From: Paramacrobiotus metropolitanus
Lineage: Eukaryota; Tardigrada; Eutardigrada; Parachela; Macrobiotidae
DNA: 64,000 nt
Direction: 5' to 3'
Assembly (NCBI RefSeq): GCF_019649055.1
Contig: NW_026570270.1
Location: forward strand, 124,001 to 188,000
Made by a program: the position numbers and the translations under genes. A model generated the notes under the pieces. The model searched no databases. It was not told the DNA's origin and was given only the letters and a program-made list of their open reading frames with translations. The stretch's first letter is position 1. Each line of letters starts with the position of its first letter. Shown one piece after another: positions 20,363 through 51,667 of this stretch.

Positions 20363-22082
20363 TGCCTCTGGGCGGGAGTCCGAGCCCCTGCGAAGGACCG
20401 GCCTCATACCGCTCCAGTGCCCGCTCCGCACACGACCCTATTGGGGTCGGTGGCTGCGCCTCGGAAGTATCCGATGATGGGGTATCTCGCGCCGCGTTCT
20501 CCTCCGGACCCGTGGTGGCGATACAACTCACGGCCGAAATCCGAAGGTCGGTCGGTGGTATTGTTGGACCGGTGTAGGCATCTGTTGGTCGAGTCCGTAA
20601 CGGCGAGAAAAGTAAAAAAAAAATAAAGTATTATTCCATCTGTCTGTCTCTCTCTAGTAAAATAACATCACAATTCCTGGTGAGCAGGTTAAAAAAAGAT
20701 CAATAAAATGAGAACATCATTTCGAGATTAGTAAAAGTAAACTCAAAGTCTTTGGTCCGGGGCTTTGGGCCGGGTGCTTATTCCGACTAGAGCTCGTCCG
20801 CTTCACGGGGGCTCCAGTCCACTGGAAGTCCGGTCATCTAGGTCCGAGGCATCGGTTCTCGGGATACCCAATGGTACCGGTTCAATTCACCGAGGGTCGA
20901 GGGTTCGACCCTATTGACTTCGGGTAAGAGTATGGATCTCCATTGTCGGGTGCGAAACGGGCGTGAAACACACTTTCCGACCGGGATCCTCCGGTAGAAG
21001 TTTGATTGGAACCTTCTTAGCCGGGTAAGACGAGTCGTACTTACGTCCAGCCGAGGTTCATCAGGTGAGGTTGATGGAGAGGCACTGTCGCATTCGCGAA
21101 TACCGTAAGGTACCCCCTCTGAGTGCAGAATAAGACCTATTGGGTCTATTGATCGGTGGATCCTCCGGGGAAATCCGGTGATCCGAGGTTCGAGCCAGGC
21201 AAACCGTAAAGGTGTGTCCTGTCGCCTATTGGACAACAAGGACCGGTTAATGCCTGGTCTCCCTGGGGTTGAATGGTCGAAAGGTATGGTCTCTGTGCGG
21301 GAGTCCGACCCTGTATCCGGTTAGCCTCAAAATGTTGGAGTCCGATGGTAGCCTCGGTACCCGAGGGTCAGCTCCGGTTGCAAAATCAAAGTCCAAGCTC
21401 AGCCTCGGTTGCTGAGTCTAAGTCCAATTGGCAGCCTCGGTACTCAAGTTAGAGTCCGAGTTGTACCCTCGGCTGCACTGGCAAATGGGTACAAGGATGT
21501 TCCGTCCGGCTGAAAATCCTATGTTCGTCTCCTGTCACCTATTGGGTAACTCGGAGAGGATGATCGCCGGGGTTCGGAAGGTCGATGGGTGCAGCCTCGG
21601 TACTCGAGGTAAAGTCCCGATGTACCCTCGGCTGTGATGGCAGAGCGTAATTACGCGATGTGCTGGGTGTTCTGTCCGGTCGAAAATCCCGAATATATCT
21701 CCTGTCACCTATTGGGTGACTCAGAGATAGTGGGTTCCGGACTTGGAAGGTTAAGGTCCGAGGGTCCAAGGGTAGATTGGCCTCGGTCGATTAATAGTTG
21801 ACGGTCTGATAGTCCGATAGTCATTTCCTCCCGGCAAAACCCTTATTGACGGTGTAGGTCGCCTATTGGGCAACTCTACCGAGGGTCGCACCGGTAAGAT
21901 GAAGTTCCTACCCGGGGCAGCCTCTGTGTCCGGGGTAGCTTCGGTGGTGAGGTAGTCAGCATCTGGTAAGGCTGGTCCTAAGGCATTCTGCCCGGGCAAA
22001 ACCCTTTTTAACGTCTCCCGTCACCTATTGGGTAACATGGAGAGGGTTGATGCCTCTGGACAGGGTCCGAGCCTCGGTGATG

Positions 22083-22114
22083 AGACTGGCCCAACATGCT
22101 CTGGTGGGAGTCCG
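22083..22114 (-). repeat. Internal copy of the LTR/internal junction
   Basis: ACTGGCCCAACATG at 22085-22098 repeats the last 12 bases of the left LTR plus the first internal bases (20351-20364). The match continues as CTCTGG(T)GGGAGTCCG versus CCTCTGGGCGGGAGTCCG, about 31 bases in all. The internal copy therefore duplicates the place where plus-strand DNA synthesis would be primed. Confidence 0.75.
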
Positions 22115-22682
22115 CTTGTTGCTGGAGATGTCCACCGGGCGACTAGCAAAAATCATGCAAAAAGAGGCTCCTCAGCGGCTGTATAAGACCTAATTGGGTC
22201 TGAGCCACGAGGTAGACACTCTGGGTTTTAAAGACGGAATCCATGCTGGTCCGTTCCTCGGCTGATCCCGTGCTTCCACTTAGGCGGAAACACCCGGGAT
22301 GCCGGAATGATGCTGGGGCTAAAGGCCTATTAAGCCTGTTGGCGTAGTTATGGGCGTCCGTAGCCTCCTTCTGGGCGTGCAGTCGTGCCGGACTCGTCAA
22401 TCCTCTGCCGGGCTGTCATAGCTATTCAGGGGACTAACGAGTGCCCTAACGTCCTGGTACATCCTTCCGGTGACCACAGTCCAATTCGCGGTGAAATGGT
22501 CATGCCGGTCACTCCCACCTTCCACCAGCTTCATGAGCTGAGGTAAAGGTGTGAGTGTGCCCTAATGTCCCACTTCATCCGTGTCCGGTGTGGGATGGAG
22601 GCCTATTGGGCCTCGAAAGGCATCCTTGGTGAGGTAAAGATCGTGGTTATACGCGATCTGCGATGGCTTGCTTCCTCCGAGG

Positions 22683-24527
22683 GTCCTTCTGCCGGAGGGA
22701 CAGGCCGGTGGAGCGAAGCGGATCGCGCCGCGCAGCACCGTCCCGTCGCTTTTCGTGCGATGGATTCCGCCGGAGTTATGCTGCCGAGGCCTATTGGGCT
22801 CTCGTGCTGACTTCGAGTGACGGTCAGTCAACCAGCTATTACTCCGATTCCCGGGGTGTCCATGGGTCGGTGGCGAACATGGTGCTGAAATTCGCTATTT
22901 CAGCGCCATGTTTGCGGAATCCTCTTGGATTGAGTTCCGGAAATAGGGTATACGGATCCACCGACCGAGGGTGTATTTCTTCCCCGGTCGCCGTGATCCG
23001 TACTCGGCTGAGTCGTGCAGATTGCTTGGTCAGGAGATATCGCTTCCCGATCCAGACGGTCCGCATTCGGTTGAGGGATAAGAGCCTATTGGGCTCCGAG
23101 GGTTGGAGTTATGGAACCGTATGTCCACCGGGTCCTTCTGCCGGCTGGGTTTGAGCAGGAGTGCTCAGCAGGTCATGCTGGGAACCCCTGGACAACCTCC
23201 TTTCGTGCGAAGGGTCCGATATTGAGGCTGTCACCAGGGCCTTGCTGATATAGGACGTTTTCGCTGCCTATATCCACGAGGTCCGGGCTATTAAGATCTG
23301 AGAGTAAGAGCCTATTGGGCTCTATAGTCCAAGTTACGGAACGGATCATCCGGGGTTCCTCTGTCGGAGGGACTTGAGCAAGGACAGTTGCGTACGTACG
23401 CAGTTGTGCTTGCCCAAGTCGCTATTCGTACGATTCTTCCCGATATGACGTTCCTTTTTATCCGGGGATCAGCCTCCAGGATCCTTCTGCCGGAGTGGCT
23501 GACGAGAGATGAATTGTGTAGTCACAGTTCACCGCTAGCCAGCCGCTATTCGTGCGATTTATCCCGGTGAACCGAGGTTTTCAATAAGTTCGACCCTGCC
23601 AGTCCGAGGGTCGGAGGGTTGGACATCGGGGGTATCCCTATTGGGGTCTACTCCCTGAGTCAATGGTGGGTCGGGCTTCTACCACGGCCTATGATGTTCC
23701 CTTTTTAGCTTCGGGGATAGCGGGTCGGCGGAGTCGCTGATCCAGCTGGAGCCAGCTAACCGTTGGGGGTCGGCTAACCCTTTAGTTCGGTTGCATCCCC
23801 TCGCTGCTTGGCTCGGTTCGCCTCCTGTCATTGTCGCCAGAGACCGGAGCATTCCGTCCGGTTCATCCAGGGGAAACCAGGGGAGACGTCCGGTACGGTC
23901 CAGGTTGAACTCGTACTTATCGGGTCTATCCGAGGGATCCATCTGAGGTTGGATTCCAGAGTCTTCTGCCGGAGTGGATTATCCGTGCAGAACAGCAGGT
24001 CATGCTGATCTGCGCGGAGAAACCGCCTTTCGTGCGAAGGTCCAGACTAGCAAGGTTTAGGAGGCTTCTCTTCCAGAACTACGGTAGTCCGAGGGTTGCC
24101 GGTTCGGTTGTCCTCTACTGACGACGAGGTCTAAATTTCTGCCTTAGTCGTCTGTAGGGGATTAGGCTCCGCTAACTTTCTGGCGGCCTATTGGGCACCT
24201 TCCCTGGAACCTATTGGGTTCACGGGGAAGTTATCGATAGGTTCGTGTGCCGCATTCGCCTTCGCTTTAAACCGTCCATTTCCGGAAGGTGTGGTGAGAT
24301 CCATATTTTGGTGGTCCTGGCCAGAGTGGACAGGTTCCCAGTCGGCCAAACCTACTCTGGCCAGGGCCTAAGGGTTCATCAGGCCTAGGTGGGCACTTGC
24401 CTCGGAACCTATTGGGTTCACAAGGTAGTTGTTGAGCCCATTATGGGGTGGAGTCCGGTCAGGTCCAACCCGTTGGACTCTGTCTTTCGATCCGAGGTAT
24501 TTCCGTTCCCGCGTCGGAGGGACGGAA
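22683..24527 (+). repeat. Second hairpin family, TGCCG/TGTCG loop
   Basis: Examples on the + strand: GTCCTTC-TGCCG-GAGGGAC (22683-22701), GTTCCTC-TGTCG-GAGGGAC (23355-23373), a bulged ATCCTTC-TGCCG-GAGTGGC (23481) and a related 9-bp stem at 24501-24527. Partial copies near 23128, 23960 and 24706. Each lies between CAAUA hairpins. Confidence 0.6.
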
Positions 24528-24540
24528 CTTAGAATGTTCA

Positions 24541-24792
24541 TCCACAGGTGGAGGCCTATTGGGCCTCGTACTCCGGGGCCTTTAGAGTCCGGTGAGATAT
24601 CGAGCAATCTGCTCGGGTCGAAGGGGGTTCCGACCATGGTTCGGCAATGGATTGGAGCTATGTAAGATATAGGAACGGGAGTTCCTATATGGTGCCGAGG
24701 TCTGGATCCTTCTGCAGGTGGAGGCCTATTGGGCCTCATACCCCGGAGCCTTTAGGGTCCGGTGAGGTATCGAGCAATCTGCTCGGATCGAA
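24541..24792 (+). repeat. Direct duplication of an 80-base hairpin block
   Basis: Copies 24541-24622 and 24711-24792 share the GAGGCC-TATTG-GGCCTC hairpin, a CCGG(G/A)GCCTTTAG block and CGAGCA-ATC-TGCTCG, with about ten differences. Between them lies a perfect 10-bp hairpin ATATAGGAAC-GGGA-GTTCCTATAT (24667-24690). Confidence 0.85.
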
Positions 24793-25077
24793 AGACGGGT
24801 TGGTCAGTCGTAGTTAAGGTCAAGTCGTGATACAGGGTCAAGTCTACCACCGTGTCCCTTATTGAGGGTCCGGTTTAGGTAGCTGATCGTGATTAATGGA
24901 CGCGGTCTGCGATGGTAGCTCGTCGTAATTCAAACTACCAGATGGTCGGCCAGCGATCTGCGGCTCCTCGGTTGGGTTCCATCAGGGGTATACGCCTCTG
25001 TTGGAGACGTCGTCATGTCCATTTGACCGGTTTCACGGTTAGCCTAACCCTATTGGGGTCCGGCTACCGGTCTTTCT

Positions 25078-26610
25078 TTATTCTAAGTCCACGTTGACCG
25101 GGGCTCCACCACCAAAGTGAGAGCCTTCCGAGTCATCGTCTTTATCCCTTTCCCATCGTCCTGGGTGGCTCGAGGATGTAGCCTCCTGGGTACAGGTTGA
25201 CTGCGATTCCGAGGCTTCCTGTCCGGGCTTTTCGGCTTTAGTTCGGCGAGCTTCGCGTCTTCGGCGGTTCCTGCCCGAGGATGATGAACCAGGCCACATG
25301 TTGTACCTGTAAGATGACTTGCCTTCGGGCATCGGTGGTGATGTGAACCCGGGTGGCAAGTGGCGATGGGTCCGGCACCACTCCGAGAGGGTCGAAGCCT
25401 CATCAACGTCTTTTTCGTCGTCCGGATGGTACTGGTATTCCTTATGCCATCGCTCTGCCGTCAGCAGGAAGTCGCGCAGCCATAATCCTACCACTGTATC
25501 TCTCATCGGCGTACTCAACTGGGCCACCGCCGTCCGAAGTCGGGGCGGAATGTTGTTGTTCCGGTATGCGCAGTACAGGGTGTAATGGCTGAGATGGTGG
25601 CCGAGTCGAGCCGCGAAAATCAGTTGCAAAGCCGTCTGGAAAGCCATCGGAGCATCTCCCCGGGCTTCGGGTTCGGTGTTGCCAAGGTATTCGGGCAAAC
25701 CCTGGGCCGCTCTGGCTGCAGTGATCACCATGGCTGCTTGTGCCTCGGTGAGTACGAACTGCGCCACCCATTCCGTGTGATCCGTGACCTCTCGTTCCGA
25801 GGCATACACCGGAAGCTGGCTCAGTTGAGACCAATCCAGATGGTCGAGTGGCAGTCCCAATGTTGCTGGGTCGGTTGCGCTGGGCAGACCGTTCGTCCGA
25901 TAATACGGGAATCCGATGCCATAGGCCAACCGATCATTCATCTCAAAGTCCTCGGACCATTGCCGATGTTCGAACATCTGTTGGTATCCGGAGTGGTCGA
26001 GGAAGATTCGAAGGTCATTAACCAGGTGCCAGACTTGATTTCGTCGGTCTTCCCGGTACTGCATGGTTGCCATGATATAATTCGTCCTTTCTGTCGGATG
26101 TGGGATCTCCACCGCAATACCCTGTCGGCGTGCATGGTCGTACCGAGGGTCATGCTGGCTCGGCACTATCGGTTCTGGGTCAGGTAGTGGTCGTTGTGGC
26201 ACCGGCAACTCATCCAGTTGCTCCAAAGGTGGGGGTGGTCGCAAGGCTGGGTGTTGAGCCGCCTGATGTCGGGCCACAGGTTGAGTAAGGTTACGCCGGG
26301 ACTTACTGTTGGAGTCCACGACGAGCCCGTTATCCTCCGATCCGGATCGCTTGCCGGGGGAGGGTCGAGTCCGATCCTTCAAAGTCTTATCAGCTGGTGG
26401 TTGCGCCGTCGCGGGCCTATTTTGGGCCTCTAGCTTGTGCCGTAGATCCCTTCCGATCCTATGGCGTAAGTCGCCGGGCGTCAGGTCCGACACACTCTGG
26501 GTTCTGCGGTTAGACGGAGTGGACCCTGTTGGGGTCACTGCTGCCGTCACCGATGGCTCTGCCGATCGGATTACCGGCTGAGTCGGGGGCTGCGAGGGTA
26601 AGCTGGCCGT
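25078..26610 (-). CDS. Retrotransposon ORF12, in frame after the ORF11 stop
   Basis: About 510 codons in the same frame as ORF11, separated only by TAA (26613-26611). No ATG occurs in the first about 180 codons, so independent initiation is unlikely for the full product. N-terminus Arg/Pro-rich, then a folded-looking domain of about 270 residues (NQVWHLVNDLRIFLDHSGY, PEYLGNTEPEARG, LGHHLSHYTLYCAYRNNN, DTVVGLWLRDFLLTAERWH), then a basic, Ser-rich tail (SSSSGRNRRRREARRTKAEK) ending acidic. I recognise no family. Its Trp-rich helical domain could be capsid- or matrix-like, but that is guesswork. Last ORF before the structured 3' region. Confidence 0.5.
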   Translation of the reverse strand, partial: TASLPSQPPTQPVIRSAEPSVTAAVTPTGSTPSNRRTQSVSDLTPGDLRHRIGRDLRHKLEAQNRPATAQPPADKTLKDRTRPSPGKRSGSEDNGLVVDSNSKSRRNLTQPVARHQAAQHPALRPPPPLEQLDELPVPQRPLPDPEPIVPSQHDPRYDHARRQGIAVEIPHPTERTNYIMATMQYREDRRNQVWHLVNDLRIFLDHSGYQQMFEHRQWSEDFEMNDRLAYGIGFPYYRTNGLPSATDPATLGLPLDHLDWSQLSQLPVYASEREVTDHTEWVAQFVLTEAQAAMVITAARAAQGLPEYLGNTEPEARGDAPMAFQTALQLIFAARLGHHLSHYTLYCAYRNNNIPPRLRTAVAQLSTPMRDTVVGLWLRDFLLTAERWHKEYQYHPDDEKDVDEASTLSEWCRTHRHLPPGFTSPPMPEGKSSYRYNMWPGSSSSGRNRRRREARRTKAEKPGQEASESQSTCTQEATSSSHPGRWERDKDDDSEGSHFGGGAPVNVDLE

Positions 26611-27411
26611 TTACTGAGGTAAGCCACCTTCTTGTGGGGCTACCAATTGCTGTTCCACTTGGCTCCGCTGAATGGCCGGCTGAGCCTCCATCTGGTGGGG
26701 GTGAAGGATTTGGGCCATGTATTGATGGCCGTCGGGTCCGGTAAGTGCGACCGTCATCCCGGTAAGGGGTGCGGGACCAGTAAAGAATGCACTCCCAATG
26801 CTGGGTATATTCGCGGTCCCATCCGGATTCAACACTTCTGCAAAGACATTATGAGGGGCGGAGGGCTCGTCCGGCAACCTATTGGGTTCCACCGTTAGTC
26901 GGGCCAATGAGTCGCCGGCCACACCCATAGGTGGGAGCTTATCCTCCTTCGGGCGTGTCCGTTTGTCATGCTCACGCTGAGCCCTGGCAATCCGCCGGTC
27001 CGCTGCCTCTACTTCTCGGCGGTCGTCTTCGCGCTCTTGCTCCCGTCGTTGTTCGCGGGCATGGACCAGTCGGGCGTTGTCCGGGACTGGTGGGGTGTTG
27101 TCCCAACCAGGCTCGTGGGTACGTCTGCGGTAGCGTTGCAGGTCCCACATATGGAGCAACTCCCGGCCTTCCAACTGGTCGAGGACTCTGCTGTTATGGA
27201 TCAAGTATGTATACGCGCTCAGGTTCCCGGTGACGACTTGGAGATACAGGGCGTTAGCCTGGTCCCTTCGTGTGACTCGGTCCTCCCCGGCCTGTCTGTC
27301 CATATGTCGTAACAGGCAGTCCGCGCAGGGTTGGCGTGTCCGGGGTGAGTTATTGTTGGCTCGGCACGTTTGGCAACCCGAGTCATAAGGTTCCGTCCGG
27401 GGCTGGGGCGG
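26611..27411 (-). CDS. Retrotransposon ORF11: zinc-ribbon-like protein
   Basis: Frame open from a TAG at 27414 to TAA at 26613. The first ATG (27303) lies after the best motif, a C-x2-C...C-x2-C pair (GCQTC, then PCADC 15 residues on), so the true N-terminus probably comes from splicing or recoding; AAGTGTTTCTGACCATAG just before (ending 27412) resembles a 3' splice site. After the cysteines come a helix-rich part, an Arg/Glu-rich coiled coil (EQRREQEREDDRREVE) and DSLARLTV, shared with ORF6. The same frame continues after TAA into ORF12. Function unknown; nucleic-acid binding by the zinc ribbon is inference. Confidence 0.5.
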   Translation of the reverse strand, partial: PPQPRTEPYDSGCQTCRANNNSPRTRQPCADCLLRHMDRQAGEDRVTRRDQANALYLQVVTGNLSAYTYLIHNSRVLDQLEGRELLHMWDLQRYRRRTHEPGWDNTPPVPDNARLVHAREQRREQEREDDRREVEAADRRIARAQREHDKRTRPKEDKLPPMGVAGDSLARLTVEPNRLPDEPSAPHNVFAEVLNPDGTANIPSIGSAFFTGPAPLTGMTVALTGPDGHQYMAQILHPHQMEAQPAIQRSQVEQQLVAPQEGGLPQ

Positions 27412-27654
27412 CTATGGTCAGAAACACTTAACTTAATTTTGTTAAGTTATTTTCATTTTTAAACCTTTTGGGTCATTACGTAAACCTATTGGGTTAAACG
27501 TTCTATGGTTAGATGTGAGCTTAAACGGTCGGGTACGGTCAGGTCTTGTCCGATCCTTTTTCTTCTCGCCTATTGGGCAAGAGAAATATCCCTGTTACGG
27601 AGGTTATAGGGTCTCGCCTATTGGGCAAGAAACCTCCAGTGGTGTACTTCCGTT

Positions 27655-30600
27655 TTAGCTCCTTTTCTTCGGCAGGTCAGCCGGGTTGGTCGACTTGGCC
27701 CGGGCTAACCGCTTCTGGGCTTCCGTTTCAGCCGATGTGGGAGCCTTCGGTGGGCTTGCCGAGCTTGCCCGCGTCTTAGGCAGGTGCTGTCCGAAGTCTT
27801 CAGATAGATAGAAGACGGAGAAACGCTGCCCGTGGGTCTTGTAGGCTTCACTCGATCCGAGGACCTTCTGTCGGCAGGCTTGCTCCAGGACATATTCCAG
27901 CTCGTCGGCCAGGTAGTATAAGTTAGTTTCCTTTCGTCGGACCGGTCGGTACCGTGCGTCCTCCAGTTGAGGGTAAGCGGACATCAGGATGAACTCGAAC
28001 CGACCTATTAGGTGGTTCAAAATCTCCCGTCGAGTTAATCCTTCCGGGTGTCGATCCGTCCGCAAGCAGGCAATTACTGCATCCCGCCATCCGAGGTATG
28101 TCTTCGGTGCAGGGTCTTGTTCTTCCCTCGGAAAGACGTAGTACGCCCGTTCCGTTTTAGTATACACCCGGAGGATGGCACCGGTCTCATATGCCATCCG
28201 ACAGTAGGTCTTAACCCTGTCTAGGCTAAGGTCGAACCAGCTTCCGTCCTTATCGACGCGCCAATGCTTCAGCAGCTGGTAAGCCAATTCCGGGGTTGCA
28301 TAGGTTGGGCCCGACCATGACAGCGACTTGAGTGCAGCGTGAACATGCACCCATCCGGGGTCGGTGTCGGAGATCCGAGGCTTCGGCTTAGATGCCCGCA
28401 TGGTTGCCGGCTGTTTCGGCCGGGGAAGCCGGATGATAGGCTTCGACGGGATCTCCCGAGGCAGGACTTGCGCTGTATCTTCGTGCCACTTCATGAGTAG
28501 CTGGTCGGCCGGAGGACTCGGGGTCCTTTGGTCGAAGAGGCTCGCAAATTGTTGATGAGAAGGTACCTCTGATCCGGCTTCTTCCATCGGATCATCCGGG
28601 TCATCTGCCGGAGGCTGTTCCTGGTTGCCAGGCTCATCATCCGGTTCTGGATGTTCGGGTGCCGCTGTTGGCGGCTGCCCTTTACCATCTTCATTATCGT
28701 CGTCGTCGCCATCCGAGTCATCGGATTTGTCAGAGTCTTGTTCTGACTTGGCGTCCTTATCATCATCGTCCTCGGAGGAGGGTTCTTCTTCCTCCTCAAG
28801 GGACTGAGCATTCCGCGATGTCCTTCCCTTGTTCTTGCGCTTCTTAGTCTTAGTCACAGACTGGCCCCTTGTTGAGGTTCCAGCCTGCGAAGTCGACAAG
28901 TCCATGGGGGATCCCGGAGGGGCCGACTGCGTGTCTTTGACGAATTTGCCTCTCCTATCCCGGGCCGAATGCCTAATAGGTTTGCTGCTGGGGTCTTGGT
29001 CGGCTGAAACAGACCTTTGCAAGTCGCCCGGGGCTCTTGGTCGTTCCTGGGGGAATCTGCTACCCGAGGAAGCTGCCGTTGATCTGGCCAGCTCCAGCCA
29101 CACTCTGGCTTGGGGTGCAGGGTCTTCCTCTGGTCTGACCTGGACCTCAGCTCCTTCCGGGTCATACTTCTTCGTGTGGAGGTACGACATCCGAAGCTTC
29201 TGTTCCCTCCGATTCTTTTCAGGGATGAAGTTTGGTACGGTGTACCGAAGGTGGACTCTGCGCTGCGCGTTGGTAGTCTGCAGCTCCCTTCGTAATACCA
29301 TAGCCTCGAGGATAGGGTTTACTTCCCTCATGGTGTCCTCGATCTCGGCCTCGCCTTTCGGTTTGTCGCCGTAGGTGTACATTTTGTTGAGGAACCGAGC
29401 AATCTGGAGGCGAGTAGTACCTCTTGGGTTCCTGTAATAGCCGATGGCTCTAACAATCCGTTGTTCCGGTGTTTCCTTCTGGCTTAGCTTGGCCGGTGGT
29501 TTCGGGAGTACCAGTTCGCCCATTCGGTCCCAAGATCGGTGGAGTATAAAGGCCATGCATTCGTCCTGGATCCAACTGACGATCTTCCGCATAAATTGTG
29601 CGGTAAGAAAATGGCCTCGCTCCACCCGGTATTCTTCGGTGAGCTTCTCCACTAGGGCCTGGTAGACGTCTCTGCGTTCTGCGTCAGCTGTTGTGATGAT
29701 CCGCCGGACGTCTTCCTTAAAGATCACCTTGGAAAAGGTCGGTTCCGGCTCGCCAGGTTGTCTGTCTGGCAGCCTGTTGCGGGTGTTATCCGGAGCTGGC
29801 AGGTCGGACTCATCGGTGTCAGCATGGTAGTCCCACATCTCTTCATGGGGACCCTCGGCCAGATGTTTGGCCGAGCCCGGTTCCAGCTGGTCTGATTCAT
29901 TGAGCCTCCGCCTGACCGGAGTATCATCCATTTCAATCTCCGGGGATGCCGAGCGTTCTAAATCCCGGTCCCTCTGCTGGATGTTGTCAACCATCCGCTG
30001 GAGAAATGGTGGAAGGGAGGAGTCTCCTTGTGACTCCTTTTTCTCCTTCTTGACCTTGGGTACCTCTTTTGGAGGCTTCCCTTCGGCCCAGTTCCGGATT
30101 TCGTTGATCCAATTTTCGACGCTTTGGCCAGGTTTAAGCTCAGGCCTAGGCCCCCGATTCTTGTCGGGTTCCTGTCGGCTTGATGTTGACTCTGGCTCGC
30201 TGTCCGAGGATGATAGCTCGGGTCGAACCCTTCTTCGGGCCTTGTTCCGGCGGCCTTCTACGTCCGAGACATCGGTGTCTCCGCCGCCGCGAGGTTTCTT
30301 AGGCAGTCGGTTCGGAGATTCCTTCTTTGAGGTCGACTTCTTAGCCTCGCGCTTCTTTCGTACGGTAGTGGAGTTGGCTGAGTGGATCACTGAGCCACTG
30401 AACGCGGGCATCTCTTCGTCCTCTATCTCCACGGATGGCCGCCGTTTAGGGACTACCATCCTCTTTGACGGGACCACGGACACCTTTTGGGGTACCGTGG
30501 CCTTCGAGGCTGTTTGCCCGCTAATCGGGGAAGGTTCGATGGGGTGCGGTGCCGGGATTTCGCCGGTGGCTCGCTTTTTCCGATAGTCAACGCCCATCTG

Positions 30601-32949: not shown

Positions 32950-32970
32950 CGCTCGCACTACTGAGCGGGG

Positions 32971-43036: not shown

Positions 43037-43200
43037 TTAAGGGTCCCGGAAGTGCCACATAAGGCGTCGGCCCAATTCGTGGGACTGAATTTCCAGTATC
43101 GCTGGTATGGGGAGCTGATGTTCCGCAAATTGTGCGTGGAGTACAATCCGCTCTTCTTCCCATTCGATAATTTCCTCCTCTAAGGCTTCGGTTAGGTTAA

Positions 43201-43788
43201 TTACCTCTTGGCATTCCTCCCTTGCGGCTCGGATCTGGTCATCCGTCCTTGCCCGACTCGATCGAGTGCGAGTCTTATACCGACTGTCCGGGTTTCAAGG
43301 AGGTGTCGAATGCCGGAAAACCAAGTTCGGTACCTTTGGTTAAGTATACCAGAGGCCGATGCCTCTGGTATCGGGATAGACTTTAGTATCCCTCGGACTG
43401 GTTCCAATCGGGTCGTCCGTACTTTCGCCAAGTATTGTTCGATGGCGTTATGGATCTGCAGCTCCGTTACGAGGCTTCGTTCGGTATCCGAGCATTGTGG
43501 GCAGATCGGGGGTCCGGGGTTTATCGGTTGCGCAAGCCGATTTATCCGAGCCTCGTTCGCTGCCGTGCCCGATGCCTCTGGTATCGGGATAGGCTGCACT
43601 ACACCCGAAGATGGGTTCCGCTGACCCTCATTGGGGGTCGTTGGCGCCCGGGTGAAGACAAACTTGGAATGCAGATAGTCGCATCCGAGAAGTACAGGAA
43701 CGTCCGAGTTATTGGGTTGGACGTGAAAGGTGTGGGGGCTGGTGAATCCTTGCAGGGTGACCGGTACGGTACAGCAGTGGGTTACCAT
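43201..43788 (-). CDS. pro: Retrotransposon protease, C-terminal part in another frame
   Basis: ORF of 195 codons with a true ATG at 43788, in the -1 frame of the preceding ORF. Residues about 5-40 complete the retropepsin fold (VPVTL...TFHV...VPVLLGCDYL). The frame is open back to about 43850, so the switch must fall between there and 43784. No canonical slippery heptamer is in phase there; the A4 run in CCAAAATAC near 43826 is a candidate for slippage or for a one-base loss. A CPQC...H pair (ICPQCSDTE) may bind zinc. The final 20 codons are Arg-rich and look out of frame: the pol frame over the same bases gives a better, helical peptide. Confidence 0.6.
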   Translation of the reverse strand: MVTHCCTVPVTLQGFTSPHTFHVQPNNSDVPVLLGCDYLHSKFVFTRAPTTPNEGQRNPSSGVVQPIPIPEASGTAANEARINRLAQPINPGPPICPQCSDTERSLVTELQIHNAIEQYLAKVRTTRLEPVRGILKSIPIPEASASGILNQRYRTWFSGIRHLLETRTVGIRLALDRVGQGRMTRSEPQGRNAKR

Positions 43789-45038
43789 GAAGGCGACTTG
43801 TCCGCCGACACCAAGTATTTTGGTGAAATAGCCCAGGGTTCAAGTTTAAGGTTGTTGGTCCGGCAGAAACGCTCCTCTATTAGGGATGTTTCGGCTCCGG
43901 TGTCCAACATGGCCATGGTTGTGGCTGGTCCAATCTGAACTTCATGTGTCCATGCCCGAACTACCTTCGGTCGTCCGGTGGTCTGTAACGGTTCAATCGT
44001 TACTTCTCTAATGGTCACTTCGACCGGGATTAGAGGTGTTGTTGATCCGCCAGGGACACTATTGGTGTCTGCACGCTGCGGTGATGAGATTATATCCGGC
44101 CTCGGTAGGTCTACTCCGTCTTGTGGGTAACCATCCGAGGGTCGGTGTGGACTTAGTCGTTTTGCCGGGGCTGATGAGCCTGGTGGTCCGGATGGAACTT
44201 CCTTAACCGAGTGATTCGCCTCTGAACGGTTAGCTACTCCGTCCATCAACGATTCGGCGGTTTCCACCGGGTGTATCCGGCTTGCTATCCGTTCTTCCAT
44301 GGATGGTTGACCTTCTCGTAGGGTTGAGAGGTTATATTGCATGTTGAAGAACGTGCGCGATCCGGTTACAGTTCGTGCCGGTTGTCGCTGGAAGAGGTCC
44401 GCCTCCTGCTGCAGACAGTAGGCGGGCACCTGTGCCTCCAAGGGTACTGATTCCCAGTCTTCGAAGTACTCCGTTACGTCGTCGGTCGGAGCCTCCGGCC
44501 GTCTACTTGGTTGGCCTACCAAGGACGGTTCAGGCGTCATTCTGGCGTCCTGTGAGGTTGCGGGTCGGCGTCCCGATTCTCCGCTTGGCCCGTGGCTCAT
44601 AATGCCTAATTGGGCACTGAGCCGTCCGGGCAGCCTGGTGACGTTTCTCGTCCCGGCTGGTCGGGTCCGGTTTCTCCGGCCGACATCCCCGGCTTCACCT
44701 TCTGGGCCTGGGGGTCCGGGCACGTTCTGTGTCCCGGCTGCCGATCGGATCCAAGTTCCTTGGCCGATCCTCCCAGGTACCTGTTCCGGTCCGGGAGCCG
44801 CATTCTCGGCGTGGCGAGGTTCGGGTCGATTCTCCGAGTATCCGAACCGGGGATGTTCGGCGCCTAATTGGGCTGCCGTCCCCGCCGCTAAGATTCTAGC
44901 GGACTCGCTGACCGTTGCGGAGGCTAAATCCTCGTTGAGGTTCCGAGTTGTGTCCAAAGGGTTAATCCGGTTAGTGGGGTTATCCTTATCCGGTGGTTCC
45001 GTTGGATGACAGAGGTCGAATGAGTCACCGGAGCTCAC
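43782..45038 (-). CDS. pro: Retrotransposon protease ORF, N-terminal part
   Basis: 418 codons in the -1 frame relative to gag; its first displayed codon is GTG, fitting expression by frameshift and not by its own start. The first 330 residues are a hydrophilic linker. Near residue 379 comes the active-site motif LDTGAETSLI of an aspartic (retropepsin-type) protease. The frame then stops with TAA at 43784-43782, before the second half of the fold. The missing half, with its LLGCDYL motif, is found in the -1 frame directly after. It would cut the Gag-Pol polyprotein. Confidence 0.75.
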   Translation of the reverse strand: MSSGDSFDLCHPTEPPDKDNPTNRINPLDTTRNLNEDLASATVSESARILAAGTAAQLGAEHPRFGYSENRPEPRHAENAAPGPEQVPGRIGQGTWIRSAAGTQNVPGPPGPEGEAGDVGRRNRTRPAGTRNVTRLPGRLSAQLGIMSHGPSGESGRRPATSQDARMTPEPSLVGQPSRRPEAPTDDVTEYFEDWESVPLEAQVPAYCLQQEADLFQRQPARTVTGSRTFFNMQYNLSTLREGQPSMEERIASRIHPVETAESLMDGVANRSEANHSVKEVPSGPPGSSAPAKRLSPHRPSDGYPQDGVDLPRPDIISSPQRADTNSVPGGSTTPLIPVEVTIREVTIEPLQTTGRPKVVRAWTHEVQIGPATTMAMLDTGAETSLIEERFCRTNNLKLEPWAISPKYLVSADKSPSW

Positions 45039-45056
45039 CGACCTTAGGCGTTTCCC
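45014..45056 (-). promoter_or_regulatory. Programmed -1 ribosomal frameshift site, gag to protease
   Basis: In sense direction the last gag codons are CAG GGA AAC GCC TAA, so the heptamer G GGA AAC (45056-45050) sits in the correct phase. A six-base spacer (GCCTAA) leads to a hairpin at 45043-45014: GGTCG(G)TGAG pairs with CTCA(TT)CGACC around a nine-base loop. Slippery heptamer, spacer length and hairpin all fit known -1 sites, and the -1 frame is exactly that of the protease ORF. Confidence 0.8.
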
Positions 45057-48000
45057 TGGGATGTGCCCGGGACAGGCCCTCCAACTGCCGGTTGGTATCC
45101 GCCCGAGCCCCTATTGGGGGCCGGGGACGGCGGCAGTTGCGGCCGTTGGGCTGGTGGCGGGGTTGCCAATGGGGGTCGACCACCATTCTGGGGGTTCCCT
45201 CCATTTCCTTGGCCAGGCTGCCGGTTGGGGCTGCCTTGGCCGCCGAATCCGCCGGCATTCTGCTGACGGGGGCGTGGGGGTGGTACGATGTTCGGATAAT
45301 TCTGATTCGCCGAACCTAACGGCCATCCGTTATCGTACCGGTACCTCCAGTCCAGGTACCATCTCCGGTTTGGATTATCTTCCAGCCGGAGGTTGGCGTA
45401 GCCACAACTCGCTTGGTTGTGGTTGCCCCATAGGCAGTGACCGCAGGAAAACGTTCCGTCCTGGGTCCACTGAAAGAACTTAGCTTCCATCCGGTCGACG
45501 TACGTCGCCTGCTGGCGAGCCTCCTGCTGTGGTGTCCGAGGCTGCCGTTGCACATTCTGGGGCTGGCCGCCTCCACCCGCGCGGTTGCCGAAGTTTCCGC
45601 GGCCGCGATTCCCGCCGCCACGTCTTCCGCCGGAGCCGCCATATTGTGAGGCTCCGCCGCGTCCATATCCGCCTCCGAAGCCATACCCCTGGTTCTGAGG
45701 TTGGCCGTAGCCGGAGTTCTGGCCATAGCCCTGTTGGGGCTGGCCGTAGCCGGGGCTCCGAGGCTGGCTGTAGCCCTGTTGGGGCTGGCCGTAGCCGGAG
45801 TAACCCTGGCCCTGAGGTTGGCCGTAGCCGGGGCTCCGAGACTGACTCGGTTGGCCACTATTTCCGTAGGCCGGCGGCGTGACCATGGTCCCTGTTGGGG
45901 CCCCATTCAGGTTCAACGCCGCCATTGCCGCCCAAGTCTGTTCGATTTGACCGCGGGCTTGAGGGGGTGGTGTCGCCGGGGGGCTCTGTCGGTGGAGCCC
46001 CGGTTGCACGTTCTGGTAACCTGGCGAATTGGGTTGGATGTATCCGGGGGCCGGCGGAGTGGCTGGGACGGGAGTCGCCGTCCTAACGGTGATGTAATTG
46101 GTGGTATTGCCACCTTTAACCACCTGATACATCGGCTTTCCCCGGGTGAAGTCCCGTACGTAGTCTCGGAACTCACGCGTCGTCTTCGGCATTCGGACGT
46201 CCAGAGCTGCCCGAAGGATTGGCTCCGTGACGTTCGTCCGCAGGTAGAAGACCGCCAATTCATCGGTGAGGTTGCCTCGTTGTTTGAGGTTTATGATGGC
46301 GTCATAGTACTGCTCGGGGATCTCTTGCCCCAGCATGTACTTTCTGGTAGTGATGTCCGCGACGGCCGTGACCTGTTTGTCAGGGTCCATGAATCGGGCC
46401 GCAAATTGCTGCAGCCAGTAGTCGACGGTCCATCCATTTTCTTCGGGTTCCAGAGTTGACTGGTTCTGGTACCATTCCAGGGCTTGTCCAGTTAGGGCAG
46501 CCTCCAGCTCTGTCATGAAGGCAACGTCCGTCATTGCGACGCCGTCAGCCTCCGAGCGGTAGATTCGCTGGATCTTTGTGATCCAGCCTTCCACCGTAGC
46601 CCCGTCGCCGTTGAACTTCGGCAACTCTGCCCGATTCTTCCGAGCCAAGATCCGGTTGTTCCGCTCTTCGTATCGGCGCCGGCCTTCCTCGTAGCCTTCC
46701 TGTCGGGCTTGAGCAATGTCTTGCTCATCGGGTGGTGGGGTCTGGCGCTGTTGGACCGCCGGCATCGCCTGTTGGGCTACCGGAGGATTCCAGGCCACTG
46801 GGTAGGCCGCTTGCTGGTTCTGCGCAGCCGGGGCGGGTTGAGGTGGGTAAGGCTGTGGTTGAGGTTGAGGGTATGGGTTACCATTGGGTACCGGCTGGGG
46901 CTGTCCAGGTCCAGGCGGAGGATTCTGCGCTCCGTACCCTTGGTTCGGTGGCGGGTTTGGTGCCACATACCCAGGCATCCTCTGAAGGACTCTGTTGTGG
47001 TCAAGCCACATCCCCGGTGGTATCACCACATATTGATCAGCTTGGGGCGCCGGACCTATTGGGTCCGTATTGCCCTGCTGAGGCTGGTAAGGGACATTGC
47101 CGACAGCGCCCGGGCCAACCAGACCTATTGGGTCACGGTTGTCTTGCCGGGGTTGGTATGGTCCATTGCAAGGATAACCAGGGTATACTGGGTCAGCCCA
47201 ATTGCGCTGCCCTGCCGATACGGGTTGTACTTCGATCCTCGGCGCGTACGTGTTCTGGGAGCTTGAACGTTGTCGGTCCCGATTGGAATTCCCCGAATTG
47301 GGTTGGGAACTTCCCGCCGAAACGTTCGTCGGCGGTCGAAGTCCTATGCCAGGTCCGTTTACCGGGGCTCGGAGGTTCGAGCCTCGGGGCTGGTCTTGTC
47401 CGGTTGAAGTCGATGTTACAGGCCTGGTTCCGGTTGAGAACATCGTCGTTGTGGATGTTCCTCCGTAGGCCGTAGTTGTTGTGGTAGTGGACTGGGTCGG
47501 TACATTGGGAGTAGCCGTCGAAGTGTTTCGTTGCGGCTCCGGGGCTGCCGGTACCAACGGCGGCCTCGGTACGGGTCCAACCGAAGGTTCGTTCCGAAGC
47601 ATTCCGACCTGATAGATTTGACCCTGGAGAGCCCCCGTTTGACCTATTGGGTTCAGCAAGGGGTTATCTCGACGCAGGTAGTCATCAATCTGCTGACATT
47701 TATCCTGTTCTTGGGTAGTCCGGTAGGACGGGGGTTGCTCGGTCATGGAGTCCTCAAGGTAGGTCTTTTCCTCCTTAAGGCACGCGACTTCGATGCCCAG
47801 GTCTTCTCGTTCCTGGGCCAGCTGATTGTACTTGTCGCACAACCCGGTGTATTTGCCGGTTACATCCGTGGTGTAGTCGTAAAGTTCCTGTTGGTACTTT
47901 AAGAGACGGTCCTGGTCCATCTGCAGTTGGGTCTTCTCGGACTCTAACTGTATGATCCGGGCCCGTTGAGCCTCGATGACTGCGAGTTGCTCAACGCGAG

Positions 48001-48493
48001 CCTGTTCGAACCGAGCCGTTTCGTTCTGAAGATGGGTGGTGAGGGCGAGGATCTGCTGGCCAAGTTGGGCCTGGCATAGCCGAAGGTCTACGGCTATACC
48101 CTCTGGGTCGTTCTGGTTCAGCCGAAGGTTCTCGTAAGCTGTCCGGAGGAAGTCGAGCTCCGAATTTAGTTCGTCGATCTCGCCCTCCAGGCCGATAATG
48201 CCCTGCTTGAGATGGTGGTTCTCCTCGCGGTACTCATCCACCCGGTCGAACATCTTGTGGAGTTCCGCCGAGCCAGGCTCGGAGTAGCCGAGGGCCTGTA
48301 ACCGCTGCTCCAAGTCTTGGCGCAGGGTGGCCACTTCGGCCCGAGACTGCTCCAGCATGTCCTGGAGTCTGGTGACTTCGGCTTGTTCATGACGGCAGGG
48401 CTCTTCAGTTACTTGCAACTGGGCCTCTAACTGTTCGATCTCCTGGGTCAGGTCATCAATGACGGTGTTCGCACGTTCAAGTTCGGCAGTGAG
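45044..48493 (-). CDS. gag: Retrotransposon Gag
   Basis: About 1150 codons, open from the TAG at 48496 to TAA at 45046. There is no ATG until roughly 44 codons in, which argues for readthrough from ORF1 or another start mechanism. Layout: long coiled coil (first about 270 residues), a Pro/Gln/Tyr-rich linker, a retrotransposon capsid-like domain (GWITKIQRIYRSE... LEWYQNQ... DFTRGK), a Gly/Gln/Tyr-rich stretch, then one CCHC zinc knuckle (C-GH-C-LWGN-H-NQAS-C). Gag would form the particle and bind the RNA through the knuckle. The low-complexity GYGQPQ region resembles phase-separating proteins. Much longer than a usual 300-500-residue Ty3 Gag. The C-terminus carries a -1 frameshift site into protease. 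Confidence 0.85.
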   Translation of the reverse strand, partial: LTAELERANTVIDDLTQEIEQLEAQLQVTEEPCRHEQAEVTRLQDMLEQSRAEVATLRQDLEQRLQALGYSEPGSAELHKMFDRVDEYREENHHLKQGIIGLEGEIDELNSELDFLRTAYENLRLNQNDPEGIAVDLRLCQAQLGQQILALTTHLQNETARFEQARVEQLAVIEAQRARIIQLESEKTQLQMDQDRLLKYQQELYDYTTDVTGKYTGLCDKYNQLAQEREDLGIEVACLKEEKTYLEDSMTEQPPSYRTTQEQDKCQQIDDYLRRDNPLLNPIGQTGALQGQIYQVGMLRNEPSVGPVPRPPLVPAAPEPQRNTSTATPNVPTQSTTTTTTAYGGTSTTTMFSTGTRPVTSTSTGQDQPRGSNLRAPVNGPGIGLRPPTNVSAGSSQPNSGNSNRDRQRSSSQNTYAPRIEVQPVSAGQRNWADPVYPGYPCNGPYQPRQDNRDPIGLVGPGAVGNVPYQPQQGNTDPIGPAPQADQYVVIPPGMWLDHNRVLQRMPGYVAPNPPPNQGYGAQNPPPGPGQPQPVPNGNPYPQPQPQPYPPQPAPAAQNQQAAYPVAWNPPVAQQAMPAVQQRQTPPPDEQDIAQARQEGYEEGRRRYEERNNRILARKNRAELPKFNGDGATVEGWITKIQRIYRSEADGVAMTDVAFMTELEAALTGQALEWYQNQSTLEPEENGWTVDYWLQQFAARFMDPDKQVTAVADITTRKYMLGQEIPEQYYDAIINLKQRGNLTDELAVFYLRTNVTEPILRAALDVRMPKTTREFRDYVRDFTRGKPMYQVVKGGNTTNYITVRTATPVPATPPAPGYIQPNSPGYQNVQPGLHRQSPPATPPPQARGQIEQTWAAMAALNLNGAPTGTMVTPPAYGNSGQPSQSRSPGYGQPQGQGYSGYGQPQQGYSQPRSPGYGQPQQGYGQNSGYGQPQNQGYGFGGGYGRGGASQYGGSGGRRGGGNRGRGNFGNRAGGGGQPQNVQRQPRTPQQEARQQATYVDRMEAKFFQWTQDGTFSCGHCLWGNHNQASCGYANLRLEDNPNRRWYLDWRYRYDNGWPLGSANQNYPNIVPPPRPRQQNAGGFGGQGSPNRQPGQGNGGNPQNGGRPPLATPPPAQRPQLPPSPAPNRGSGGYQPAVGGPVPGTSQGNA

Positions 48494-49996
48494 CTACTTG
48501 CGCTCCTGCTTGTGCGATGCTACCGTCTGGGACAAAACGTTCTCCGTCGATTCAACGATGTTTTGTCCGGCTAAGAGCTGATTTTGTAGCTCGTAAATCC
48601 GTTGACGGAGGACCTGTGGGTTATCGATCTTCTCCGGTGGGGTCTTCGTCAGGTACCGCCGGGGTGTGTAGTCCGAGGCTCCGATGTGTGAGCCTGGATG
48701 TTGCTTCGGTGACGGAAACCTGAAGCCCTTTCTGCTGTCCGGACGCTCGGTCACCTTATTGGGTAACACGGTTGCGTCGAAGACATCGTCAGTCGGTGAT
48801 GGAGTCTTATCAGCCCCGATGTCCGAGGGTTCGAACATCGGTGGTGTAGCCGGGAGGTCCGAGGTTGACTTTGCAACCTTCGGTGAAGCCGATTTCGACT
48901 TACGGGTAACTTGTGAAACCTCCATCCGGCTGGCTCGGGTCAGCATAGGTTCACTGCCGGGGGTTATGGGTTTCGGGGATGACGGTCCGCCAGCCGAGGT
49001 TAAAGTAACCTCGGTAACCGAACCCTCAACCTCGCCCGTGGAGGTTGCAACCGACGAGATCCGGAATTTGACCGGGAAAACGGCTTTCTTAGCCGAAGAA
49101 GTGGGGGTTGCCGGCCGGGTTCTGGATGTTCCAACCTGTTGGGTCGGAGTCCGGGCCCCGGTATTAGGGGTCCGAGCCTCGGTGTCCGAGGCTCTAGCCG
49201 ACTGCAACCTTCCCGTTGGTGATTTGGAAGTCCCCGAGGTCGGCTTCGATGAGTTTGAAGTCCGAGTCGGAGTCCCAGTGAGGGTCGTCGGGTCCGGTGT
49301 GGTCACCTTCGGAGTCCCCGAGGGTCGTCTCGGGTCCGGCGACGTTGATTTCCGACTCTTGTCCGGAGATTTGGGGTTATTGCCTGTTGGTTTGGGGCTT
49401 TGAGCCAGGGTCGGTGGGGACTTAGTCGGTGAACCCGCCTTGTGGGTCACCCCCCGTGTCGGTGATACCGTACCCTTCGTTTGGCTCGGGCTCATCTGGC
49501 CTTGCCTCTGTTTGGATCCAGCCATGCTGCCCTGTTGGGGCTGCACAGGGTCACCCATGTCTGGTGACACCTCGGAGCTACTTAGCGCCGGGCTTGAGGC
49601 TCCATTGTCCGGGGTGATAGCCGGGAAGAAGACTGGCGAGGCACCTATTGGGTGCACAAGTCCAGCCGCAGGCTCGGAGTTCGCAGTTTGACCTATTGGG
49701 TCATCCAGAACCTCCGGCTCAGCCTGTGGTAGCTCGAGGAACGTCCGGTCGTGTGCGTCTTCGAAGCTATCCTCCGGTGATTGGGTGAAGTCGTTCGCCA
49801 GGATCCGCGCATCTCGCTTCTCCTTGGTCGATTTGGTCGACTGGTTGGATTTACCGGACTTACTCGATCGGTTGGAGTCCGACGAGTGAGGGTCGCTACC
49901 CGGGCCTGCATGACGGAAGGTGTACCCGCCAGCATTGTCACGTCGGGCGTAGCCTTGGTCGAACTTCCGTTCGTACGGGTTCTCTCGACCGGACAT
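48494..49996 (-). CDS. Retrotransposon ORF1: Ser/Thr/Pro-rich protein with C-terminal coiled coil
   Basis: 500 codons from a true ATG at 49996, first ORF in the element. Residues about 30-430 are low-complexity, rich in S, T, P, K, typical of disordered and phosphorylated chains. The last 45 residues become heptad-like (LRQRIYELQNQLLAGQN). It ends in TAG at 48496-48494, but the same frame stays open into Gag and the coiled-coil pattern continues across the stop. ORF1 may therefore be the N-terminal part of Gag, made with or without the rest by stop readthrough, or cut off here by a mutation. Two hairpins of the CAAUA family (49641, 49689) lie within it and are read as H-P-I-G and D-P-I-G. Confidence 0.75.
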   Translation of the reverse strand: MSGRENPYERKFDQGYARRDNAGGYTFRHAGPGSDPHSSDSNRSSKSGKSNQSTKSTKEKRDARILANDFTQSPEDSFEDAHDRTFLELPQAEPEVLDDPIGQTANSEPAAGLVHPIGASPVFFPAITPDNGASSPALSSSEVSPDMGDPVQPQQGSMAGSKQRQGQMSPSQTKGTVSPTRGVTHKAGSPTKSPPTLAQSPKPTGNNPKSPDKSRKSTSPDPRRPSGTPKVTTPDPTTLTGTPTRTSNSSKPTSGTSKSPTGRLQSARASDTEARTPNTGARTPTQQVGTSRTRPATPTSSAKKAVFPVKFRISSVATSTGEVEGSVTEVTLTSAGGPSSPKPITPGSEPMLTRASRMEVSQVTRKSKSASPKVAKSTSDLPATPPMFEPSDIGADKTPSPTDDVFDATVLPNKVTERPDSRKGFRFPSPKQHPGSHIGASDYTPRRYLTKTPPEKIDNPQVLRQRIYELQNQLLAGQNIVESTENVLSQTVASHKQERK

Positions 49997-51219
49997 CTTC
50001 GGTGGTAGCTCTATTGGAGCTATGAAGTAGCCTCCGGGTTGTCCCTTCGGCCAAAAGTCAGACTATCCCTATTGGGGACTTGTCCGAGGCTGATAAGGCT
50101 TTTTGCCTGTTGAGGGTCCGAGGGTCCCGTGGGGGGGCTAGGGTCCGGTGGGGGGCAGAGGTCCGGTGGGGTGAGGGGTGATGGTGTGGGTGTGCTTGTA
50201 CTACTTGCAACTCAGTACTGTTGTCAATACAGGGTACAGCTTACGTACGTCCTATACTACAGCACTGACCGCTATGACGTCACACACCGTTAAGTGGTCT
50301 TGCAGATTACTGCCTACGTCACGATTCTGCGCGCCGCGTGCAAAATTCCAAAAAACAGTGACTCACTACGGGCTTATAACATAGGGAATCTCCCCGTTAT
50401 CCTGATTGGTCAGATTTTAATATGGTAAATCGGCCGTCGTGACGTCACAATTAATTTTTAATTTGAATTAATTATTTTTGCCGTAGGAAAATCGGCGAAA
50501 ATTCCGGAAAAATTAAGAAAAATTATTTTTCACCGACCAAAAATTAATTTAGCCGGGGGAAAGTTACTCCCGTAATTTTTCGTAAATTTAGAAAGGTTGT
50601 TAACCGAGGCTCAGAGGGTCTACACCGAGGCTCGAGGGTCCGACCTAGTAAGGTTGGCTAACCCTATTTTACCCGTAAAAAGATGTTTTTAAGCCCGTTT
50701 CTCCGGGTGAAAAAGGTTTTTAGCCGACCGAAACTAGTTTTCGGCGGTGGAAAATCAAAATGGCCCGGCTATATCGGGTCTACTGAGGCTCTACAAAGTT
50801 TACCGAGGGTCAATCGACCCTTTTTACCGGGTGAATCCGAGTCGTTCCGCTGGGTTGTCCGGTGAATCCCGCGCTGTTATAGTTGCGGGTGCCACTTAAG
50901 GCAAAGGCGACCCCGATTGATGAGGCTGAGAGGGTCCGCGAGGGTCCGTACCGTCCGTTCTGTCCGGGGATCCGCGGAATCCGCCAATCAACCCGGGCAA
51001 AGTCCGTCCAAGGTCGTTTCCGCGAGGAACGTTCCGTCCACGCGCAGGGAGAAGGGTCTGCCGAGGCTTTCTGCCCGCAAGAGAGAGAAAAGAGACCAGA
51101 CCGTTCTGGCTGGCGGCGATCAGATGGGGATGGGAACCTTCGGTTCTCCCCTGTCTTCTCGTCGGCCGTTACGGATGTAGGTCTACACCGTGGTCTCAGA
51201 AGGTTCGCAGAAGGAAAAA
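49997..51219 (-). other. 5' leader of the element
   Basis: About 1.2 kb between PBS and the first ATG of ORF1 (49996). It holds one loop-conserved hairpin close to the start (50066-50078, TCCC-TATTG-GGGA on +), a G-rich direct repeat on the + strand at 50131-50180 (GGTCCGGTGGGG units), and an AT-rich segment at about 50440-50600. No long ORF in sense direction. Packaging and translation signals would be expected here. Confidence 0.5.
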
Positions 51220-51663: not shown

Positions 51664-51667
51664 GTAG
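51664..51667. repeat. Target-site duplication, right copy
   Basis: GTAG directly after the right-hand LTR, matching 19933-19936. Confidence 0.85.

Follow-up and report, generated by a model that had tools for sequence, protein, structure and literature searches.

A giant long terminal repeat (LTR) retrotransposon in the genome of the tardigrade Paramacrobiotus metropolitanus carries, along its sense strand, about 50 short hairpins whose loop is nearly fixed (CAAUA or a close variant) and whose stems change while still pairing. The element occupies positions 19937-51663 (minus strand; 31.7 kb) of the 64,000-nucleotide stretch of DNA analysed here, hereafter referred to as the window. Its terminal direct repeats, the 4-bp target-site duplication GTAG that flanks it at 19933-19936 and 51664-51667, and the order of reverse transcriptase (RT), RNase H and integrase identify it as an element of the Ty3/Gypsy type. 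The initial annotation of this DNA proposed that the hairpins form a distributed recognition code, a view that is supported by covariation at orthologous sites of related copies, by a preference for the sense strand and by different loops in sister families. We suggest, with a probability of roughly 55%, that the covarying hairpins are bound by the element's own Gag protein, which would thereby select the approximately 31-kb genomic RNA and condense it into particles.

Number, loop and distribution of the hairpins

When loops of the sequence CAAUA, CAACA or CAAUUA and stems of at least four pairs are considered, 48 hairpins are present on the minus (sense) strand of the element; the minus strand of the window outside it contains one CAATA hairpin and none with a CAACA or CAATTA loop. 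All 31 occurrences of the motif CCCAATAGG lie on the minus strand, within 20445-50076, and the plus strand has none. The 48 hairpins (39 with at least five pairs) contrast with means of 0.98 and 0.35 (maxima 6 and 3) in 200 dinucleotide shuffles made per 1 kb. Within open reading frames (ORFs), the numbers are 26 and 19 for the two stem lengths, against 1.70 and 0.85 (maxima 6 and 3) in 500 synonymous-codon shuffles, with one site counted twice as it lies in two overlapping ORFs. Comparable numbers after shuffling had been named beforehand as grounds for abandoning the idea of a selected array, but both procedures give only about one to two hairpins.

The near-fixed character of the loop noted at the outset is borne out by the frequency with which different pentamers close a stem of at least five pairs on the sense strand: CAATA does so at 26 of its 64 occurrences and CAACA at 8 of 76, while any other pentamer reaches at most three cases. 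Read on the opposite strand, the same places present a TATTG loop (20 of 64). The closing pair, described as almost always C-G, is of this type at 38 of the 42 pentaloop sites. Over 227 comparisons between pentaloop sites and copies, the loop consensus reads C (220), A (215), A (219), U (150) or C (70), and A (215), counts obtained with a BLAST database that also contained a few protein rows from alignment files.

A covariance model of 17 positions was derived from an alignment of 30 pentaloop sites, out of 34 that have at least five pairs (those with loops at 24561, 21544, 45736 and 25865 were left out of the alignment). In an unfiltered search it yields 67 matches at E<=10, 65 of them in the element and two outside, and 52 matches at E<=1, all of which fall within the element and on the minus strand. 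The original estimate of about 60 hairpins therefore holds at the loose cut, whereas the strict cut gives a number closer to 50. A search of the element against Rfam 15 returned no match at the gathering score.

The densities first given for the hairpins, roughly one per 500 bases and one per 150-300 bases in the 3' region, can be made more precise. The hairpins number 3.7 per kb in the non-coding 3' part and 2.0 per kb in gag; no hairpin was counted in the 2386 nt encoding RT to integrase, where the model finds one weak match (39889-39905, E 0.57), and none was counted in the LTR. The gap over RT-integrase is as expected if protein constraint limits the placement of hairpins. Two 78-nt direct repeats, 92% alike, are found at window positions 24545-24792 with a GAGGCC hairpin in each, and on this evidence local duplication contributes some of the 3' sites.

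Many of the hairpins have two storeys, separated by an internal loop that is biased towards the 5' side. Of 114 non-redundant instances, collected from the window element and the further loci (a few come from loci that do not belong to the family), 65 continue past an internal loop or a bulge, of no more than five bases per side, into a second stem with four or more pairs; shuffled flanks give 33.6. Exactly one extra 5' base is found in 23 of the 114, against 4.9 expected.

Stem covariation, related copies and sister families

Across the 30 aligned sites of this one molecule, 93% of the stem cells pair, and the covariation score of 0.922 compares with 0.185 after shuffling and at most 0.154 for slid pairings. 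Such covariation is circular by itself, since the sites had been chosen for pairing. We therefore turn to related copies, with 51 window sites (loops CAAUA, CAACA, CAAUUA and CAAUAA) in 257 comparisons with 23 loci, and with 199 hairpins of the same element that have other loops as controls. Where both sides of a stem pair have changed, the new pair is Watson-Crick in 52 of 53 cells, against 49 of 109 in the control hairpins. This excess has p = 1e-12 by cells and 7e-4 by distinct changes, of which the latter is the safer value because cells share ancestry.

At less than 80% identity, a CAAUA-type loop and at least four stem pairs are retained in 82 of 132 comparisons, 41 of them with changed stem letters; in 16 the loop is retained with a weaker stem, and in 34 the loop is lost. 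Under the exact-loop rule applied to the controls, the hairpin is retained in 77 of 132 comparisons at this level of identity, against 54 of 422 for the controls. Copies that keep the loop string while losing the pairing had been named as the second outcome that would speak against the idea; at this divergence, however, the stem survives in 82 of the 98 cases in which the loop does. The statement that the stems change while still pairing thus applies both between the sites of one molecule and at orthologous sites of related copies.

One-sided changes provide minor support for the strand on which the structure acts. At the sites they lead to G-U in 35 cases, to A-C in 19 and to other combinations in 31, and at the controls to 203, 386 and 351, respectively. 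G-U is hence better tolerated than A-C, which points to the sense RNA as the favoured strand, with a bias of p = 2e-5 by cells that is weak (p = 0.056) by distinct changes. When folded in a 155-nt context, 48 of the 51 sites have a closing-pair probability above 0.5, against 43 of 150 controls sampled from the 199.

A DNA search with gag gives at least 50 match rows genome-wide, of which 35 show 87-100% identity and the others 68-83%; a single copy can account for several of these rows, and 40 of 68 candidates were scored. Applied to 14 loci (118 kb), the covariance model finds 104 matches at E<=1, of which 102 lie on the sense strand of eight family loci; the other two are on the antisense strand, one each in L014 and L018, and none at this cut is present in L017, L019, L036, L037 or L038. 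The 13-letter pattern GNCCCAATAGGNC has 329 matches genome-wide, against 42 for the reversed pattern. Among its first 100 places, 85 fall into 15 clusters, each on a single strand, and the two open positions are Watson-Crick in 92, against 41.9 (maximum 57) upon shuffling. A stem pattern that leaves the loop open occurs at 896 places genome-wide versus 177 for its reversed form. A derivative shortened to about 8 kb by internal deletion (L016:1520-9670) retains 19 sense hairpins between LTRs that are alike at 297 of 300 compared positions, and has no match to pol or ORF4-11; presumably it is mobilised in trans. Hairpins of this kind are absent from the stretches L012, L023, L026, L028, L030 and L031, and stretches L029 and L032 have at most one per strand; these are presumably shorter or shifted copies.

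The pol protein search, in which 25 of 3128 first-look candidates were scored, so that further families and copies surely exist, revealed a further group at 65-67% identity to the window Pol. Two of these sister members were read in part over 12 kb, namely the C27 copy (L036 and L037, 5 kb each) and the C13 copy (L038, 2 kb), and no CAAUA-type hairpin is present in these 12 kb. The 5 kb just after pol in the C27 copy (L036) instead contain a dense array of hairpins with other loops: CC-[UCA/UCG/ACA]-GG closes stems of at least five pairs at 18 of 19 places, AACAG at 6 of 19 and [AC]AC[AG]GAA at 10 of 18, while shuffles give means of 0.03, 0.01 and 0.03 and the antisense strand none, for loop patterns that were chosen after the sequence had been seen. 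The heptaloop stems vary with their pairing kept (AAUCGAC/GUCGAUU, AGUCGAC/GUCGACU, ACCGAC/GUCGGU). Between positions 2178 and 4107 of L036, hairpins stand in pairs to quadruplets at a spacing of about 27 nt with recurring loop types, whereas the array of the window element is scattered. In the C27 gag region (L037), the heptaloop lies in a stem at 3 of 16 places, AACAG at 1 of 30 and the triloop at 0 of 2, so that the array of this copy is concentrated in its 3' part. Genome-wide, CCGACCTCRGGTCGG has 194 matches and its reversed form none; when up to two mismatches are allowed, ACCGACAACAGGTCGGT has 313 and its reversed form 32.

In the 2 kb of coding sequence read from the C13 copy (L038), ACACA is enclosed by stems of 6-7 pairs, differing from each other, at 2 of 5 sites. 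The pattern GNCCACACAGGNC has 711 matches genome-wide versus 73 reversed, and 86 of its first 100 places form 14 strand-pure clusters, nine of which are 25-33 kb long while one is a 0.4-kb tandem repeat. The cluster at C1:909635-937692 (+) spans a pol of 67% identity (C1:916867-921306, +). Open positions are Watson-Crick at 62 of the first 100 places, against 40.8 (maximum 56) by shuffling, and 33 are unpaired. Separately, tandem GGCCACACAGGAC units with a spacing of about 50 nt at C7:2565954-2566402 account for 8 of the 100 places listed for the ACACA pattern; this array is probably unrelated to those of the retroelements. A more distant relative (one copy, L017-L019; pol about 51% identical to that of the window) has no enriched loop except in a short tandem repeat.

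These observations lead us to a tentative proposal, to which we give somewhat less than an even chance: each of the co-resident giant families may carry, over its whole genome, an array of hairpins with a loop of its own (CAAYA, ACACA, or UCR/AACAG/CACAGAA), a kind of password co-evolving with the Gag of that family, so that the selection of RNA and the assembly of particles would run on a multivalent RNA code specific to the family. With loops of this private kind, co-resident families would not package each other's RNA.

Architecture of the element, its candidate reader and rival explanations

The features of the element, which has an internal region of about 30.9 kb, and the positions of its hairpins are listed in Table 1.

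Table 1. Features of the element and positions of its hairpins (window coordinates; loop positions are the plus-strand number of the first loop base).
Feature	Position	Strand	Remarks
3' LTR (sense)	19937..20362	-	426 bp, TG...CA, identical to 5' LTR
5' LTR (sense)	51238..51663	-	426 bp
ORF1	48494..49996	-	N-terminal part of Gag; low-complexity by eye
ORF2	45044..48418	-	Gag: capsid-like piece 46019-46651, G/Y/Q-rich and RGG stretches, one CX2CX4HX4C knuckle
ORF3	43782..45038	-	weak aspartyl-protease match, below cut-off
ORF4	43201..43788	-	shares its frame with ORF3 and the beginning of pol in copy L009
ORF5 pol	37313..42967	-	RT, RNase H, integrase, in Ty3/Gypsy order
ORF6-ORF11	25078..37138	-	no Pfam family above its cut-off
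Leader hairpin	50064-50080	-	GUCCC[CAAUA]GGGAU; AA/A internal loop; lower stem UCGGAC/GUCUGA
Leader hairpin	50006-50022	-	UAGCUC[CAAUA]GAGCUA
Gag-region hairpins (ten), first five	49688-49704, 49640-49656, 49527-49543, 49131-49147, 47120-47136	-	
Gag-region hairpins (ten), last five	47051-47067, 46099-46115, 45771-45787, 45726-45742, 45106-45122	-	
Protease and pol N-terminal hairpins (four)	44601-44618, 44054-44070, 42670-42687, 42319-42336	-	CAAUUA at the first, third and fourth
ORF6-ORF11 region, 14 hairpins	25671..36813	-	loops 36807, 36698, 36278, 33000, 32195, 30840, 28670, 27623, 27575, 27491, 26884, 26531, 25865, 25681
3' non-coding array, 18 hairpins	20433..25061	-	loops 25055, 25003, 24864, 24731, 24561, 24414, 24216, 23317, 23091, 22608, 22196, 22030, 21868, 21714, 21544, 21231, 21142, 20443

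ORF1 and ORF2 are a single frame of 1597 codons in copy L009, and ORF10 and ORF11 are one frame in copies L010 and L027. ORF6-9 have no match in copies L009-L011; in L010 (4581-7019), an ORF6-like N-terminus stands in frame with ORF10+11. Pfam domains in ORF5 are RVT_1 (694-848), RNase H (939-1040), H2C2 (1278-1335) and rve (1359-1449). With regard to an env gene, ORF6-11 gave no Pfam match above the cut-off, and the structure model of ORF11 is of low confidence: the AlphaFold model, derived from 4 sequences, has a mean pLDDT of 33 and is not usable, and ORF11 (25078-26550) has no homologue at E<=0.001 among 7990 candidates scored. A 115-nt direct repeat, 80% alike, is present within ORF7 (35474-35588 and 35897-36011). 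Outside the element, an ORF at 7732-8922 (minus strand) encodes a galactosyltransferase domain (Pfam PF01762, E 3.9e-29) and presumably is a host gene.

In the parts that were read, sister families of one host share the arrangement of the hairpins but not the loop, and the reader of the hairpins would hence be a protein encoded by the element. Gag, and in particular the ORF2 product, appears to be the best candidate, since Gag selects the genomic RNA in LTR elements generally (PMC4974528) and since ORF2 combines a capsid-like piece with RGG stretches and a zinc knuckle, the latter two read directly from the sequence. The capsid-like piece has no match below E 1.4 in a PDB sequence search. The retention of gag in the copies is no evidence for this role, as most copies were found through gag. 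ORF11, also considered as a reader, yielded neither a homologue among the candidates scored nor a usable model, as described above. The C-terminal part of ORF2 (45044-46000), a G/Y/Q-rich and RGG low-complexity region around the zinc knuckle, recalls FUS-like proteins; by analogy, this suggests that such a stretch of Gag would suit condensate formation.

In the mechanism that we envision, the loop would be the constant that the protein reads, and the stem would be required only to pair. Many weak Gag contacts would act together on one RNA, and cooperative binding across about 50 sites could provide both the selectivity for, and the condensation of, the 31-kb RNA. Packaging or assembly is a plausible purpose of the array.

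An element-encoded reader might instead serve nuclear export, the suppression of splicing or the translational control of a polycistronic RNA, in the manner of Rev/RRE or CERV, which we regard as the less probable use but as the most serious competitor. CERV, a protein of the Cer1 retrotransposon, is reported to be required for the export of Cer1 genomic RNA (PMC10309623). The RNA considered here is very long and holds several ORFs, its sites are found in the leader, the coding and the 3' regions, and the loop differences between sister families fit any reader encoded by the element. Export elements, however, are known as local structures and are not known to extend over 30 kb, and the regional densities show no single focus other than the 3' region.

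It appears unlikely that the reader is an RNA-binding protein of the host, whether the element recruits it or the host uses it to mark the element's RNA, or that the hairpins mask the RNA from small-RNA silencing. Animals do possess loop-specific RNA-binding proteins, and freely variable stems would be compatible with one of these; yet, in the parts read, the sister families in the same genome have the same arrangement with other loops. Moreover, selection would hardly preserve a mark that harms its bearer, and masking would not need a fixed loop.

Far lower in our estimate stands the idea that a dimeric DNA-binding protein uses the sites as palindromes at the DNA level (an enhancer, insulator or chromatin mark). 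Although inverted repeats with a 5-bp spacer, in our own reading, resemble dimer sites, this explanation was set aside, because freely varying arms enclose a spacer that is fixed, non-palindromic and present in one orientation; the preference for G-U over A-C on the sense strand (weak by distinct events) and the lack of any site in the LTR also speak against it. We give even less credence to copies of a small mobile or duplicated unit without a selected structure: some 3' sites do lie within related direct repeats of 63-78 nt, and the C27 copy has units spaced by 27 nt, but the stems of the 30 compared sites differ widely and nevertheless pair, and orthologous stems change in matched pairs, so this reading was likewise set aside. 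Chance, base composition or a repeated peptide (PIG, QQG, PNR) has a negligible probability, since, even though P-I-G is encoded at 6 of the 26 ORF sites, neither kind of shuffle reproduces the hairpin numbers, the ORF sites are spread over all three codon phases (8, 12 and 6), and 23 sites lie outside the listed ORFs (18 in the 3' region, two in the leader and three in the gap 27304-27654), which leaves no peptide that could explain the hairpins.

Known systems and significance

Dispersed packaging signals, that is, many genome-wide stem-loops with a shared loop motif, are described for the single-stranded RNA viruses MS2 (a bacteriophage) and human parechovirus 1 (PMC6281560, PMC5431903, PMC4751978) and for satellite tobacco necrosis virus; hepatitis B virus is a further case. 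The core motif of the parechovirus, GxU, was found with SELEX, and the MS2 sites were mapped by crosslinking. The element resembles these arrays of single-stranded RNA viruses in its many dispersed sense-strand stem-loops with a shared loop and free stems, and its array would work like a set of dispersed packaging signals, of which it is a putative member. It differs from them in that the replicon is an LTR retrotransposon of about 31 kb, that the loop is near-invariant and visible by eye, that Gag binding is something we infer, and that sister families show different loops.

The motif of the MS2 coat hairpin combines an (x)xYA loop with an A that lies in a bulge of the 5' arm (PMC6281560). 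The CAA[U/C]A loop also ends in YA, and the lower stems favour one extra 5' base, but the combination of an (x)xYA loop with a bulged 5' A was not found in the element hairpins. Their loops have five to six bases, as compared with the four of the MS2 coat-protein hairpin, their internal loops vary without a fixed bulged A, and the replicon is unrelated; the likeness is convergence at most.

In Ty1 and Ty3, Gag selects the genomic RNA, the packaging sequences are ill-defined with a possible contribution of scattered sites, and cis-acting packaging sequences of Ty1 are placed within 580 nt of the 5' end (PMC4974528). These LTR elements share with the one studied here a genomic RNA that is selected by Gag; the excerpted text of PMC4974528 mentions no comparable hairpin array. 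The planarian Burro elements are giant Gypsy-like LTR elements of more than 30 kb in total, with an internal region of up to 25 kb and extra coding capacity, which exceed the traditional size limit of retroelements of about 10 kb (PMC6431247). As a giant Gypsy-like element, Burro is comparable to the one described here with its 426-bp LTRs and approximately 30.9-kb internal region; in its excerpted text, the review uses the word hairpin only for Helitrons (PMC6431247). Among the entries listed in searches of the open-access literature on packaging stem-loops of retrotransposons, on Paramacrobiotus retrotransposons and on hairpins of tardigrade retrotransposons, none describes such an array.

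If our proposal is correct, the array would represent a packaging principle that is not described for retroelements in the literature searched. In our view, the debate on whether dispersed, loop-coded stem-loops drive the selection of RNA has relied largely on the degenerate motifs of small RNA viruses. The array described here is visible from the sequence alone, is backed by compensatory change and exists in family-specific versions in one genome, so that the question of a loop code becomes directly testable by assaying the hairpin of each family against the Gag of each family. The finding is also relevant to the questions of how a retroelement RNA with roughly three times the traditional size limit could be recognized and condensed, and of how cross-packaging between co-resident elements might be avoided. 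It further suggests that the function of the RNA, and not that of the protein, can shape long coding regions of low complexity, and the families of P. metropolitanus would offer an accessible natural system for studying the divergence of RNA recognition codes.

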